Of a stretch of DNA of 23,668 nt, positions 9,031 through 23,104 are shown one piece after another; position 1 is the stretch's first letter; every line of letters begins with the position of its first letter. The DNA is taken from IMG/VR virus record IMGVR_UViG_3300037367_000125, positions 1 to 23,668 of that record. One strand, written 5' to 3'. The notes beneath the pieces were generated by a model. It was given only the letters and a program-made list of their open reading frames with translations, was not told where the DNA came from and searched no databases. The stretch is from a virus. Position numbers and translations under genes: made by a program.

Positions 9031-9561
9031 ATGATCCATCCGATCATCGCCGTACCTGTTATCGCGAGCCTCTTGCTCGTGCTGGCAGCCTCATGCAATC
9101 CCAAACGCGGCTCCCGCGTCCTGGCGTGGCTGGCCAATAACGCCATCCTCGTCAATGTTACTCACAAAGGGTACGCCACCGCCGTGGCGGACGCCCCGTT
9201 CACCAGCCGCTATCTTATCGCGAAACGCGGCGCGGAGTATTACAGCATCGCGATCGCCGGCCAGGGGGACACCCCGTACGGCGTGGTGCCCGACATGACG
9301 CCGACCACTGACACCGACCTGAGTTATCCGCTGCCGGTAAACATCCTTGGGCTGAACGAGGACACCGAGCGGATGATCGCGAACGGGCCAATCGCAATCG
9401 ACAACCTGATTACCACGGCGGCAGGCGGCCTGGTGCAAGCGCTGCCTGTGGCTGCGCCGGGTAACTATTGGGTGCTCGGGAAGGCCAGGACGGCGGCGCA
9501 GAACCAGGATGACCAGGTGGAGGTTATTCCGTGCTTTCCGTACCAGGTGCAGGTGGTCTGA
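9031..9561 (+). CDS. Head decoration-like protein with a lipoprotein-like N-terminus
   Basis: A 176-aa protein in the slot between protease and major capsid where phages place the capsid cement protein. Residues about 38-176 are beta-rich with Gly/Ala/Pro turns (FTSRYLIAKRGAEYYSIA, TYPLPV-like strands, GNYWVLGKA), resembling small trimeric decoration proteins such as the DUF2190 group; this is a judgement by pattern. The first 22 residues (hydrophobic 5-20 then ASC with Cys22, followed by a basic NPKRG) look like a signal or lipoprotein peptide. A strong AAGGAG supports this start, and no in-frame ATG exists that would remove the hydrophobic part. How a membrane-targeting segment fits a capsid protein is not clear. 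Confidence 0.65.
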   Translation: MIHPIIAVPVIASLLLVLAASCNPKRGSRVLAWLANNAILVNVTHKGYATAVADAPFTSRYLIAKRGAEYYSIAIAGQGDTPYGVVPDMTPTTDTDLSYPLPVNILGLNEDTERMIANGPIAIDNLITTAAGGLVQALPVAAPGNYWVLGKARTAAQNQDDQVEVIPCFPYQVQVV

Positions 9562-16816: not shown

Positions 16817-17698
16817 ATGCCAATCACTAATCAGATCATCCGGATATCGGCGGACAGCGCGAGTAAAGAAAACGTCATCGACATCAACTCCAATGCCGAG
16901 CCGGAGGCGTGGGTGAGCAATGATTTGACGATCCAGTTTGGCTGGTTCCTGAATGGAGTGCTGCAAAGCGTGGCCGGGATATCGAGCGTCACGTTTTACC
17001 TGAAAGATAACACGGACCTGGACGGCCCGTCGCTGCTCGATTTGACGGTCAACTCGTTCGATAACACGACGACTCAGAATACCTGGGCTGCGGGGACGCA
17101 GCAGCAAGGGGTAATCGCTATCACGGCCGATGACCTGGCGCTGGGCGGTCTCCAGGGCAATCCGCCCTCGCGGCTGCTGCATTTCAGCCTGGTGGCGGTG
17201 ATGGGCACGGGCCAGATCACGACGCTGTGCGTGGGGACGCTGAACCTTATTGATCCCGGCGCAAACTCCGGCGGGAGTGTGCCGGCGGCCGCGTTGACGG
17301 GATCGCAGGTGGCGGCGCTGATCGCGGCGGCGGCGATCAGCCCGGCGGCGCTGAATCTGAACGCGGCGGGGACTTCTGCCATTACCAACGCCAATCCGTG
17401 GATCGCGGGCCGGCAGCCGGTGACGCTGGCGGCCGGCGGCGGGGCGTATGTGGCTAACCTGACATTAACCGACGTGGTTGCGGTTACTTCCACGCCTCTG
17501 GCGGGGGCGGTGCTGCGGGTGATTGTGGATTTCCCGGCATCGGCGAATCCGACGTTGAATATCTATGACTCCAGCGTGGCGGGGACGCTGCTGCAAGGGC
17601 CGCTGACCAATCCTAATCCGGCGATTGCGCAGAGCTTCTACTTCCAGGCGGGCTTCGACGGGGCCAACTGGCACAAAGAGGACGGGCATTGGATTTAG
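16817..17698 (+). CDS. Baseplate or upper-fibre-like beta protein
   Basis: A 293-aa protein. The N-terminal 130 residues form a beta domain (WVSNDLTIQFGWFLNGVLQSVAGISSVTFYLKD, about 32-64), a layout seen in upper baseplate and tail-tip proteins that hold fibres. An Ala-rich helix at about 155-180 (AALTGSQVAALIAAAA) follows. The last 90 residues contain ANPTLNIYDSSVAGTLLQ and end FDGANWHKEDGHWI; this segment resembles residues 95-150 of the fibre protein encoded at 17770 (PSLQVMDSSTNGTLLH ... TQWSFNPEG), so the two neighbours share a domain. Function is inferred from context. The start has no Shine-Dalgarno sequence; its leader is repeat-derived (CACTTACCCATG). Confidence 0.65.
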   Translation: MPITNQIIRISADSASKENVIDINSNAEPEAWVSNDLTIQFGWFLNGVLQSVAGISSVTFYLKDNTDLDGPSLLDLTVNSFDNTTTQNTWAAGTQQQGVIAITADDLALGGLQGNPPSRLLHFSLVAVMGTGQITTLCVGTLNLIDPGANSGGSVPAAALTGSQVAALIAAAAISPAALNLNAAGTSAITNANPWIAGRQPVTLAAGGGAYVANLTLTDVVAVTSTPLAGAVLRVIVDFPASANPTLNIYDSSVAGTLLQGPLTNPNPAIAQSFYFQAGFDGANWHKEDGHWI

Positions 17699-17769: not shown

Positions 17770-20298
17770 ATGATTCGCAAACCATTCATCACTCGCGGGG
17801 AACTCATCGGGGTCGCTCTCATCGGGGCGCTGCTGCTACTGTTTTTGTGGGGGAGATTGCCGGCGCACGGGGACCCGTCCCCGACGACGTACTCGCAGTA
17901 CAACGGGGCTGCGAGCCTGGGGACGGTGACAAGCGGCACCACGATTACCCTGGGCCGCCTGGGGAGCGTCTCGACTTATCAGCTCACGCTCTCAAGCGGT
18001 ACCGCGCCTTACTCAGGCCAGATCGTGTTGAGCGATACCGGGATTCATCCTGGCGATCTCTATTTTATTGCGGTGAGTTATCCGGGGAGCGGGTACCCAT
18101 CGTTGCAGGTAATGGATAGCTCGACGAACGGGACGCTATTGCACTCGTCGACGGATACAAGCATCGCGGGGAAGACTGTGCTCCGCTTTGTCAATACCTC
18201 CGGGACGCAATGGAGTTTCAATCCGGAGGGGGCGCTGCTGACGCGGAATCTGGGAACCGGTTTACAGGCGGCCTCTGCGCAGCCGGTGAACACCGGCAGC
18301 GGGCTGGTGACGGGGAGCGGCCTGGCGAGCGGGACGGCCGGTTACTCGACTTCGCTCTCTTCGACCCTAAGCGGTATCTCGTCTCCACTGGCCGCATCTG
18401 CAGGACCGCCGATGCTGGCTCTCACTTCAAGCGATGTCGTTGTGTTTAACTTATCGAGCTGGGACCGGGCGGCTCATGTTTCGGGGACAGGTCTGGTTGG
18501 GACGCAGCTCCCGAATGGCGGATACACCAGCGCGTGGCCCACTCTCTTGATGCAGAGCGCATGGGGAAAGAACGCCCATTGGTTCAACGTGTCCACGGAC
18601 GGCCAAACGACGGCGGGAGCGCTGGCTCAATATAATACTCCGAACACCACGTATGGAGTGACTGTGCCGAGCCCACACGCGATTTTCACGAGTGGCTCGT
18701 TTCCGGGGCGAAAAATTCTCATCACAGGGGGCTCGCTGCTGCACAACGACGCTGAGAGCCTGATAACTACTGCGTCCACGGTCGCCAACTTATTGCAAAT
18801 GACGGGCAGCGCCCACGCGGATACCGCGACCGTAATCATGGCTACGTCACCGGTGATCGACTATTGGACAGGCGATTATCTCGCGACCAATCCTCTCATC
18901 AAGGCGGACGATCTCGCTTTGATCGATGGGACGCAGGGCGTGCTTTGGGACGGGCTCGCCCGGATGGATGCTTACCTTCCCAACCAGGCTTATACACCGT
19001 GGTTTCCCGATAACCTTCACGGCAGCGCGTTGGCCGCGCAGATTGCCTCCGATAATTGGGAGGACTACCTGAGCCGCGGCGCGCAAAACATCCCTGGCGA
19101 CTTCGGAATAAACAATGAGGGGACTTACTTTGGAGGCGGTCTCTCGGTGGACACGCTGATGGGTCCGATTGCCATTAATCTCAATGAATCCGAGGGGCGC
19201 ATTGACCTGTTTAATGACGGGACGAACTTCTTCGGAGTCTCGGCGCCGGCCTCGAGCGGGTCCGCGGTGACGTTTCTTTACGCGTCGCAATACACAGGAT
19301 CGAAGGTTTCCATCGCTGAGTTGACTTCATCAGGGGCTTACCTGGATAAGTTTGATTTTTTCGTGACGGGGCAACCTGTGGAGACGGCTACCGCAAACCT
19401 GTCACTGACGGGCACGATGACTGTTACCGGCCCGCTGGTCGCGCAGTCCGGATCGTTCTCTTCGGCGATGTTCGCGACTTCGGGGACGATTGGTACGATC
19501 ACGTCGAGCGTCGGCTTTTACACAGGGGGGCTTACAGTCACGCCCTCGGGGATCAGCTTTGGGAACACGCCGGAATACCTGGATGTTTACAATGGGGCGG
19601 GTAGCGCGGTGCTGGGGATGTACGCCGGCCCGGGCAATACCTTGGAACTCTATACCGATGCGGTGGGAGGAGGCAGCGTGACGCGCGGAAGCATGACTTA
19701 TCCGGGACGGCTTTATACGGCTTTTGATTCTCTGACACAGGCCGGAGGTGACACATTCTATTTGACGACGGGGACCGGAACTCTCGGTGTGAGTGGAACT
19801 GCACCTACCTGGAACGGGGCGCCGTGGCCGGGCGGCGGTGGATCTTCGGCCACCACGCTAACCAACGGGACTTTTACTACTTACGCGCCGCTGATCAATG
19901 GGACGGCGAATGACACGATTGTGACGGGGACGGCTCATTGCACTGGTACGAACACGGCAATGGTTAGCGGCACGCTGGCAAAGGGGACTTATCTGCTTCA
20001 TGCTATAATAACAACGGCGGCAGGTAGTTCCTCGAACTTCAACCCGTTATTTAGGTACATCAATGATCTGACGGTGACTGGCACCTACTGCGGTGAATTT
20101 CCCACTGCCGGCAGTCCAAACAACTGGAACGACTTCGAGGGGAACACATCCGTAAATCAGGCCAGCACGGTTGATCCGTATCAAGAGATCACGATTCACA
20201 CTCCCGGAGGAGCGTTTTACGGGGCCATCATTTCGGACACTTCCGGCACCACGAATGCAACGGCGGATTTTGTAATACAACAAATCGGGAGCCAGTAG
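17770..20298 (+). CDS. Tail fibre/spike with embedded SGNH-hydrolase-like domain and N-terminal membrane helix
   Basis: An 842-aa protein. Residues 11-28 are a membrane helix after a basic start. Residues 45-155 are a beta domain shared with the preceding protein. Residues about 222-435 resemble an SGNH/GDSL esterase: strand VVVFNLSSWD (223-232) in the block I position, with Ser230 where the catalytic Ser would be but LSS in place of GDS; VSTDGQT with Gly278 (block II); ILITGGSLLHND with Asn327-Asp328 (block III); and DNLH at 414-417, the Asp-x-x-His of block V. Such domains deacetylate or de-esterify surface glycans. Residues 440-720 are repetitive Ser/Thr/Gly beta structure, and 720-842 look like a compact receptor-binding tip. 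Virion fibre is the best reading. Confidence 0.72.
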   Translation: MIRKPFITRGELIGVALIGALLLLFLWGRLPAHGDPSPTTYSQYNGAASLGTVTSGTTITLGRLGSVSTYQLTLSSGTAPYSGQIVLSDTGIHPGDLYFIAVSYPGSGYPSLQVMDSSTNGTLLHSSTDTSIAGKTVLRFVNTSGTQWSFNPEGALLTRNLGTGLQAASAQPVNTGSGLVTGSGLASGTAGYSTSLSSTLSGISSPLAASAGPPMLALTSSDVVVFNLSSWDRAAHVSGTGLVGTQLPNGGYTSAWPTLLMQSAWGKNAHWFNVSTDGQTTAGALAQYNTPNTTYGVTVPSPHAIFTSGSFPGRKILITGGSLLHNDAESLITTASTVANLLQMTGSAHADTATVIMATSPVIDYWTGDYLATNPLIKADDLALIDGTQGVLWDGLARMDAYLPNQAYTPWFPDNLHGSALAAQIASDNWEDYLSRGAQNIPGDFGINNEGTYFGGGLSVDTLMGPIAINLNESEGRIDLFNDGTNFFGVSAPASSGSAVTFLYASQYTGSKVSIAELTSSGAYLDKFDFFVTGQPVETATANLSLTGTMTVTGPLVAQSGSFSSAMFATSGTIGTITSSVGFYTGGLTVTPSGISFGNTPEYLDVYNGAGSAVLGMYAGPGNTLELYTDAVGGGSVTRGSMTYPGRLYTAFDSLTQAGGDTFYLTTGTGTLGVSGTAPTWNGAPWPGGGGSSATTLTNGTFTTYAPLINGTANDTIVTGTAHCTGTNTAMVSGTLAKGTYLLHAIITTAAGSSSNFNPLFRYINDLTVTGTYCGEFPTAGSPNNWNDFEGNTSVNQASTVDPYQEITIHTPGGAFYGAIISDTSGTTNATADFVIQQIGSQ

Positions 20299-20710: not shown

Positions 20711-23104
20711 ATGGCCTGGTATCTATCCATAGGCGGCGGCGAGCCGCAGTTATTCACCCAGCTTGGATTATCCCGCCTAAAGCGGACCATTCGGAGCCAG
20801 CAGGCCGGCAGGTTTACTTTCACGGCGGATGGCGCCGCCGCCGATTCCGATCCGCTCGCGGCCGAGGGAACCATTTGCACGGTACTGCTTGACGATACGC
20901 CCTTCTTCTCAGGGCGGCTGCACCGGATACCACGCCAGGGGACCGGCGCAGCGGAGAGCGTCGATTACGAGTTACTCGATGCGTGGAATGACTTTGAGAA
21001 GAATGTCTATCAGCAGCAGTGGAATGTCATCGTGAGTGTCGATGAGCACGGGAATCCGACCCTGGCGGCGGAGTACCGCTCGGAGATCATCCTGGGCGTG
21101 GATATTGCCGGTAACACGCTGAACTCCGGCCAGGTAATCGCCGACATTGTCGCATGGGCCATTGCTGTCGGAGCTAATTGTCAGATGGGTGTCATCGGCG
21201 TCGCGGCGCCGGTACCGCTGGATGAAATTACAGACCTCCCGTGCAGCGAGTGCATCCGCAAGCTCCTGAAGTGGACGCCCGACGCTGTAACATGGTTTGA
21301 TTACTCAACCACGCCGCCAACCTTCAATGTCACACGCCGCGGCGATTGCGCGGCCACGTCCATCCCGTTTACCGGCTATCCGCCCGGAAACTCCGGTGCG
21401 GCGGTCGAGAGCGTCGATGTCAAGGCGCTGCCCGAGTTGCTGGCCCCCAGCGTGGTGTTCCGTTACATCCAGGAGAACAAGACCGATGGCTACCCGAGCA
21501 TCAATGTCATCGTCGATGATTTTCCAGAAGGCTCGACCGGCCTCGAGTACGGCGCCCTGGTGCAGACCACCCGCCTGGCGGGCACTAACTCCACTTATCA
21601 AAAGGTGCCGGTCAAGACCCAGGGGATTCCGACGGCCGATAGCAGCGGAGAGGATGGCGGACCCGGGGACGACCCGACGATCACCTGGTGGCGGCGAAAG
21701 ACGCCATGGCTGCAAAACTTCTCGGCTGACCGGCTTTCAATCACCAACGTTTACGGGATATTCGATGAGACGCAGACGCAGTTCGACGTGGACGGCAACC
21801 CGATAAGTCAATACCCGAATGAGTTATTAAGTGGCAGCATCGCTTCGTGGATGGATGTCATGGCCGCGGCCACGACCTGGAGCGCCCTGGTTTATTACAA
21901 TTACCCGGATGAGGATGACGCGGAATCGGATCGTGCGCAGGACGTGTTCGGCCCGTCCGATGGCAGCGACAACGCAAGCGGCCAGGTATATATCGCGTGC
22001 CAGGCGCGCGCCACCAGCGCGGTGACGCAAACCTATGCGCAGCTCTCGAGTTACACCCAGGCGGAGGGAATACCAATCGGCCTGGCGGAGCAATTATACG
22101 GCGCCGTCAGCGTGCTGCAATACGAGGGGAGTTACACCGTCGTGGGCGATGAAGTGGGAGAATATACACTGGGGCTGGTGCTCAATATCACCGGCGGACG
22201 CAGTGAATGGGAGGGGATGAACGCGCTGCTCCAGGAGATAGAGGACGACCTTGATAATGGGCGGACTACTTTGAAGTTCGGGCCGGCCGCGCATCTTACC
22301 CTCCAGGATTTGATGGAGCAACTGCGCGGGAATCGCTCGAGGACCGTCAGCCGCCATATCACGGAGCGACAGACGGGCATCCCGGGCGACCCGCCGCAGG
22401 TCGATAGCCCGACAGACTCGGCGACCGGAGGGAGCAGCACCCTGCCGGCCGCGCCGCCGCCACCGTGGTATGATTATATCGGAGATCAGGATGGGGGAGA
22501 TGATCAGCCTGCCACCTGGGACGTGCTGTTTGGTTACGGGCAGAGCAGCTTCGCGGAGAGCGACGAGATCGATCACGCAGACCCGATCGAGAAGCTGGAA
22601 ATCTCCGTGGGCAACGATGGGAGCGACTGGTCGGGCACGGACCATGACTCAACCGATGACGGCTGGGGTTTCTCCCTGCAAAGCGGCAATGACGAGCCCG
22701 AAGATGATATCCTTTGCATCGGCACGAGCAACGGCTCCGTGACGCTGACGCCGAATGATCCTTCGGTCTATCTCTGCGGAGATATCAATGACCAGGATGT
22801 TGATGACGACACGCCGCACATTACCCTCGATTTCGGCGATCTCCTGATCGAAATGCAGGATGACGACGGCTCTTATATCCAGCTCGATTTGAGCGACTCG
22901 CCGATCATCAATATCTCAAACGCAAACACGGGCAGTTACAGCAGCGTGGATGAGAACTCGGTCAACCTTTACGACACCGGAAGCGGTATCAACGTGGAGA
23001 TAGATGCCTCCGTGCCGACGCAGGATATCAGCTTCCAGCAGATACAGGTGTGCGTTAGTGGCAGCGCGATGACTATGTGGGTCCTCGGAAGCCAGCCCTT
23101 CTAA
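20711..23104 (+). CDS. Baseplate hub/tail-associated protein (gp27/gpD-like) with Asp-rich C-terminal domain
   Basis: A 797-aa protein. The N-terminus (LSIGGGEPQLFTQLGLSRLKRTIRSQQAGRFTF in outline, CTVLLDDTPFFSGRLHRIPRQG, YELLDAWNDFEKNVYQQQW) has the strand pattern of the first beta barrel of gp27/gpD-type hubs, which bind a ligand-like loop and report an offset path. The region DIAGNTLNSGQVIADIVAWAIAVGA and CIRKLLKWTPDAVTWFDYSTTPPTFNV (about 135-215) fits the second hub domain (helices then W-x-D-Y-x-x-x-P). A Pro/Ser linker at about 558-588 leads to a domain very rich in Asp/Ser/Gly (590-797; SDWSGTDHDSTDDGW, DDDTPHITLDF, MQDDDGSYIQLDLSD) that may bind divalent cations. It would form the tail tip that contacts the cell. 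Confidence 0.7.
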   Translation: MAWYLSIGGGEPQLFTQLGLSRLKRTIRSQQAGRFTFTADGAAADSDPLAAEGTICTVLLDDTPFFSGRLHRIPRQGTGAAESVDYELLDAWNDFEKNVYQQQWNVIVSVDEHGNPTLAAEYRSEIILGVDIAGNTLNSGQVIADIVAWAIAVGANCQMGVIGVAAPVPLDEITDLPCSECIRKLLKWTPDAVTWFDYSTTPPTFNVTRRGDCAATSIPFTGYPPGNSGAAVESVDVKALPELLAPSVVFRYIQENKTDGYPSINVIVDDFPEGSTGLEYGALVQTTRLAGTNSTYQKVPVKTQGIPTADSSGEDGGPGDDPTITWWRRKTPWLQNFSADRLSITNVYGIFDETQTQFDVDGNPISQYPNELLSGSIASWMDVMAAATTWSALVYYNYPDEDDAESDRAQDVFGPSDGSDNASGQVYIACQARATSAVTQTYAQLSSYTQAEGIPIGLAEQLYGAVSVLQYEGSYTVVGDEVGEYTLGLVLNITGGRSEWEGMNALLQEIEDDLDNGRTTLKFGPAAHLTLQDLMEQLRGNRSRTVSRHITERQTGIPGDPPQVDSPTDSATGGSSTLPAAPPPPWYDYIGDQDGGDDQPATWDVLFGYGQSSFAESDEIDHADPIEKLEISVGNDGSDWSGTDHDSTDDGWGFSLQSGNDEPEDDILCIGTSNGSVTLTPNDPSVYLCGDINDQDVDDDTPHITLDFGDLLIEMQDDDGSYIQLDLSDSPIINISNANTGSYSSVDENSVNLYDTGSGINVEIDASVPTQDISFQQIQVCVSGSAMTMWVLGSQPF

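Follow-up and report, generated by a model that had tools for sequence, protein, structure and literature searches.

Does the fibre-like protein of this virus carry an SGNH hydrolase domain, and is that domain still an esterase? We examined a viral record 23,668 bases long, and the whole of this stretch is called the window here. An earlier note had described an SGNH-like domain with an altered block I inside a tail fibre, and the reading frame and coordinates that it gave for the protein (P0001) and the region are correct (Table 1). We put at roughly 0.45 the probability that the domain is a far-diverged SGNH member, carried as a swappable module, which would no longer be a classical esterase and would serve mainly in glycan binding, perhaps with some residual or altered activity.

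Table 1. Features of P0001 and its neighborhood in window coordinates
Feature	Position	Strand	Remarks
Upstream gene	16817..17698	+	C-terminal part resembles the anchor module
Fibre-like protein P0001, 842 aa	17770..20298	+	Open reading frame; tail-region genes on both sides
Signal-peptide-like N-terminus, residues 1-34	17770..17871	+	Hydrophobic core at residues 15-26
Anchor module, conserved, residues 35-190	17872..18339	+	53-71% identity in five related phages
Region of the earlier note, residues 221-437	18430..19080	+	
LSS 228-230, block I of the earlier note	18451..18459	+	One of three registers; score -5.5, rank 21/831
GTG 239-241 and GTQ 244-246, other block I registers	18484..18507	+	MAFFT alignments
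SGNH-like domain, about residues 245-436	18502..19077	+	Extent from profile alignments
Block II, N273-V-S-T-D-G278-Q-T	18586..18609	+	Slot profile, full profile and hhalign
Block III region, I316-LITGGSLLHN326-D327	18715..18750	+	S322 or N326 at the Asn place, depending on profile
Block V, P413-D414-N-L-H417-G	19006..19023	+	Top-scoring place in the protein, 1/829
C-terminal fibre-like region, residues 441-842	19090..20298	+	"Fibre-like" is a reading of the sequence
Presumed tail protein, conserved, encoded after the slot	20711..23104	+	45-74% identity in seven related phages

Terminase and portal genes lie upstream of P0001 in the window. The full protein gave a weak Pfam match to DUF4397 (E 0.19), confined to its C-terminal part, and no match in PHROGs or NCBIfam. 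Residues 441-842 had a sole match at E ≤ 0.1 in 81 loci, to one L002 frame (E 1.8e-4). A C-terminal stretch of the upstream gene product aligns with the anchor module (32% over 59 aligned columns, E 5e-5), which suggests the duplication of a tail module, and the conserved protein downstream of P0001 gave no PHROG match. Elsewhere in the window, a nucleotide-sugar epimerase that could act on host surface sugars is encoded on the minus strand (1-1062; PHROG 540, E 1.8e-92), and a gene for a small protein that begins like a lipoprotein (LAASC) sits at 9031-9561, between a protease-like gene and a head gene.

We found terminases 70-77% identical to that of the window in nine records. Eight of these relatives could be compared at the position of P0001, the slot; the ninth, G001 (11,000 bases), ends before it. 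The slot holds an SGNH domain in four, other modules in three, and in one (G004) the gene is absent. It is thus a site of interchangeable modules, SGNH domains among them, that are swapped between related phages. The block I motifs of the four SGNH domains vary: GTS in G002, ADS in G006, GNS in G007 and GDS in G031. Only that of G007 (L075/L126) passes the PF13472 cut-off (45.8 bits, against 32.9), those of G002 (L078/L129) and G006 (L076/L130) falling under it at 20.1 and 19.6 bits, while the G031 domain (L082/L167) has GDS and an hhalign probability of 90.8% yet no PF13472 match. Across 50 records, the window included, PF13472 matched in seven at E ≤ 1 and passed its cut-off in four. The G031 slot protein (L082:460-2439, the same as L167:3677-5677) has a long insertion before block III. 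Among the other modules, the G003 protein matches Glyco_hydro_28 (19.5 bits) and Laminin_G_3 (22.0 bits) weakly, both under the cut-offs, the G008 protein matches Laminin_G_3 at 31.2 bits, and that of G005, with no Pfam match, was read as beta-helix-like. The anchor module is missing from G005 and G031, and a scan with residues 35-190 found no further record beyond the five related ones.

The bacterial relatives of the terminase bear on the host. Genome contigs yielded 14 of them, ten with titles of Verrucomicrobia, Opitutaceae or PVC-group bacterium; of the remaining four, two bear just "bacterium" as a title, and the others are titled Ignavibacteria and Caulobacter. Since the titles are mostly of Verrucomicrobia and the PVC group, the host is probably in Verrucomicrobia, and this group of phages probably infects members of it. 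No close relative of the domain itself was found in the 12 genomes that hold related terminases or in the viral contigs, where the single match to the full protein lay in its C-terminal part (L002); INPHARED phages matched neither the domain nor the window DNA. Matches at E ≤ 0.05 in 21 of 387 genomes from the phylum to which G055, an Opitutaceae genome, belongs were judged to be chance, the SGNH profiles giving at most 4.1 bits in those loci. An anchor profile found nothing in 384 genomes from the class of G055, in a search that had no positive control.

The relationship of the window domain to SGNH hydrolases emerges from profiles rather than from the standard libraries. PF13472 (Lipase_GDSL_2) gave no match anywhere in the window, its curated cut-off not being reached, and the domain alone matched nothing in Pfam or NCBIfam; its one PHROG match was not significant (E 0.037) and PDB sequences came at E 0.58 or worse. 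Profiles were built from the four slot relatives, from 29 bacterial SGNH domains, and from 36 domains that comprise both sets and three other phage domains. On residues 206-445 these gave 18.3, 9.2 and 17.5 bits, against shuffle maxima of 8.1, 5.7 and 9.5, so that none of 2000 shuffles reached the window score with any of the three. A mixed profile of seven phage domains gave 4.1 bits, which 54 of 2000 shuffles matched, as did 16 frames outside SGNH loci. For a background of real sequence we took 7693 frames running from stop to stop, each 80 residues or longer, from 81 loci. Those scoring at least as high as the window domain with the slot, bacterial and full profiles numbered six, four and seven and were all SGNH frames, most of them members of the profile in the case of the slot and full profiles, and one of them (L033) known as SGNH through the same kind of search. 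The best frames without SGNH reached 11.9, 7.9 and 8.3 bits. The margin is narrow for the bacterial profile (9.2 against 7.9), which gives the clear SGNH domain of G006 only 7.0 bits.

An earlier version of the profile gave 14.9 bits, reached by none of 2000 shuffles and none of 1000 block shuffles (maximum 7.8 in both), and its bacterial part 7.3 bits, again reached by none of 2000 (maximum 5.6). With the first profile, hhalign assigned a probability of 48.3%, where 200 shuffles gave a maximum of 4.65%; with an 11-row profile the window scored 0.83% and a control segment 0.36%, compared with the high value for L167 given above. The SGNH-like domain is thus very divergent. Its homology to the SGNH superfamily is likely, and we hold it with good though not complete confidence from these comparisons, short of proof. 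The domain named by the earlier note accordingly stands above chance in three of four profiles; its placement in a tail fibre is less secure, for reasons of the protein's N-terminus taken up below.

The catalytic blocks were scored with matrices of 12-14 residues, made from 21-35 family members and slid along the protein. Block V fares best: PDNLH is the top place of 829 (score 6.7), a value equalled by 16 of 200 shuffled proteins. Gly278 of block II ranks 4 of 831, alone not above shuffles, and the slot profile, the full profile and hhalign all align this residue of NVSTDGQT to block II; the bacterial-only profile alignment does not reach that far. Both blocks are where they had been placed before, and blocks II, III and V follow one another in the family order. 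The presence of Asp414 and His417 at the right spacing argues for present or recent catalysis.

Block III is less clear. The slot profile aligns LITGGSLLHN ungapped, with Ser322 at the catalytic Asn, while a gap introduced by both the full profile and hhalign brings N326-D327 onto the family ND; the corresponding ranks are 87 of 831 with S322 and 25 of 831 with N326, neither above shuffles. The Asn-Asp pair of the earlier note does exist, at 326-327 rather than 327-328, and its role is contested by Ser322, so that the assignment of either residue is doubtful. In the relative L167 this place reads LMGGANPLHI. Eleven SGNH domains, when aligned, all share one Ser, Asn, Asp and His without exception; L167, outside those eleven, combines a GDS block I with Asn where block V normally has Asp (NGVH), and departure from the motifs is therefore not unique to the window within this slot.

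Block I could not be recognised above chance. MAFFT settings shift it among LSS, GTG and GTQ, of which only LSS includes a Ser, and G-INS-i chooses LSS. GTQ ranks 16 of 831 (-4.1) and GTG 455 (-22.4), so that none of the three scores is positive, and with its rank of 21 and a negative score LSS is not above chance. The lowest block I score among 35 family members is 11.1, a gap from -5.5 that is somewhat inflated because those members were chosen by a GDS-like pattern. None of the three profile alignments that we inspected extends back to block I, and the bacterial one begins as late as residue 326. The residues LSS are indeed at 228-230, as one register of three; the proposal that Ser230 can be aligned as the nucleophile depends on the MAFFT register and is not supported, though Ser230 may still have that role.

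These results bear directly on the possibility that the domain is an active SGNH esterase, in which Ser230 would be the nucleophile, Gly278 and Asn326 would form the oxyanion hole, and Asp414 and His417 would act as acid and base to deacylate a host polysaccharide. All five residue types are there in the correct order, the G-INS-i register sets LSS on the GDS-like motif of relatives whose own block I is variable, and two of the alignments place N326-D327 at block III; SGNH tail proteins elsewhere are described as active deacetylases or esterases in the available parts of two reports (PMC8471582, PMC13123978). Against this stand the block I score far under the family minimum, even with the inflation just noted, the Ser-less GTG or GTQ at block I in other alignments, the expectation of a Ser by chance in a Ser-rich stretch, and Ser322 in place of Asn326 in the slot profile. 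We consider an active esterase of this kind rather unlikely, though it is the foremost of the alternatives. A classical Ser-Asn active site is not assignable because blocks I and III have drifted so far, and loss of the ordinary SGNH esterase role is the likeliest reading of that drift. The preferred reading would then be of a distant member of the superfamily, one of several interchangeable modules of a fibre-like protein, for which we infer an SGNH fold and most likely contact with the host surface polysaccharide; glycan binding would now be the main role in place of catalysis, perhaps with residual or altered activity left. If this is right, the unrecognisable block I beside relatives with GDS-like motifs would offer a case in which to follow the change of an esterase into a binding module.

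The N-terminus raises a different question, about the whole protein. By hydropathy and charge only, a crude test, P0001 starts in a signal-peptide-like manner, its 12-residue core having a hydropathy of 3.12 and the residues ahead of it a net charge of +2. In all eight slot proteins (the window and seven relatives; L075-L080, L082) a positively charged start is followed by a 12-residue segment that is hydrophobic and uncharged, with hydropathies of 2.0 to 3.1, and the window's remaining tail-region genes reach 1.7 or below. Two more of the 25 window open reading frames taken as genes start in this way (1224-1664 and 9031-9561), as do two genes of the distant record G050, one of them without the positive charge; a rough survey that took in 547 open reading frames of at least 250 residues from 74 loci counted 22 with a similar start. 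An extra gene after the slot gene of G008 (L079:2516-3778) also has a signal-peptide-like start and reads like a glycoside hydrolase, with no Pfam match.

P0001 could accordingly be no virion fibre at all: a signal peptide may direct its export out of the infected cell or lysogen, after which it would alter or coat surface polysaccharide, an alternative compatible with any reading of the domain. It gains from the presence of the start in every slot protein and its absence from the window's other tail-region genes; from lambda Lom, an exported factor encoded among tail genes according to the available text of PMC12309495; and from phage P8625 of Verrucomicrobia, which the available part of its report gives as without signal peptides in any protein (PMC4642752). 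Against it, the fibre-like C-terminal sequence and the occurrence of the anchor module in the upstream gene suit a virion part, and hydropathy being crude, the segment may be an N-terminal membrane-inserting one or a chance stretch. We regard export as unlikely. The slot protein may belong to the particle as a fibre, insert into the membrane as a tip, or act at the surface after export, and a signal-peptide-like start in every slot protein calls into question the automatic label of tail fibre in this phage group. We found no description of signal peptides on fibres of Verrucomicrobia phages in the open-access literature searched. A bolder combination, which we think improbable, is an exported surface-acting protein encoded among tail genes, with a C-terminal module swapped among esterase-like, beta-helix-like and lectin-like forms, and a window copy that is a glycan-binding SGNH pseudoenzyme; the phage would then remodel or mask the host surface from within, beyond reading that surface from the tail.

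Structure prediction was of low confidence. AlphaFold2 gave a pLDDT of 31.2 from the single sequence and 33.4 from a five-row alignment whose block I rows were cut to favour no register. A fold search with the latter low-confidence model returned 43 matches at E ≤ 10, none at 0.001 and none with a title naming an SGNH hydrolase. The profile of the five-row alignment found nine SGNH sequences in the PDB at E ≤ 10, the best an acetyl esterase (6.5e-4), which say little of the window because four of the five rows are relatives; L126 alone found none at 0.01. That the domain is not SGNH at all, being some other fibre domain with a chance likeness around the D-x-x-H motif, would accord with these models near 30 and the empty fold search, with the want of any significant Pfam, NCBIfam, PHROGs or PDB sequence match to the domain alone, and with the weak results of the seven-sequence profile and the 11-sequence hhalign, but it is a poor prospect against two disjoint profiles and one containing both that no shuffle in 2000 reached, 7693 frames among which none without SGNH rose above the window domain, and SGNH domains in the same slot of relatives.

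Some of these features have parallels in known systems, described here from the available parts of the papers cited. The SGNH blocks have been defined together with their exceptions, and in several families that are active the customary residue of block II or III is missing (PMC9487903), a point that counts against the preferred reading. We found no description of degenerate SGNH fibre domains in the open-access literature searched. Set against the PF13472 family, the window domain shares the order of blocks II, III and V, the residues Gly278, Asp414 and His417, and a relative above the cut-off (G007); it differs in being undetected by PF13472, in its unrecognised block I and in the uncertain Asn of block III. 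The SASA, PatB1-type and PC-esterase families, which have altered oxyanion holes, are a further parallel as active SGNH enzymes in which the usual block II or III residue is missing (PMC9487903), but they keep the block I Ser, and substitute residues have been proposed for them, whereas the window domain has no demonstrable substitute.

Phage tail proteins offer another parallel. In Acinetobacter phage Aristophanes, gp41 removes acetyl groups from the K26 capsule (PMC8471582); esterase activity is established for two Klebsiella prophage fibres, in a report that also cites Escherichia phage G7C gp63.1 as a deacetylase (PMC13123978). An SGNH domain is present in ten Acinetobacter phage fibres (PMC11058221), and such domains are reported to be common in the tail proteins of certain prophages, with a link to host range (PMC13123978). 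Like the window protein, G7C gp63.1, Aristophanes gp41 and the Klebsiella fibres have an SGNH domain in a phage tail protein, which in Aristophanes stands behind a particle-binding N-terminal part (PMC8471582, PMC13123978). These tail deacetylases have demonstrated activity, in contrast to the doubtful catalytic residues and signal-peptide-like start of the window protein. SGNH domains in phage tail proteins are thus already well described, and the window copy is a modest variant of them.
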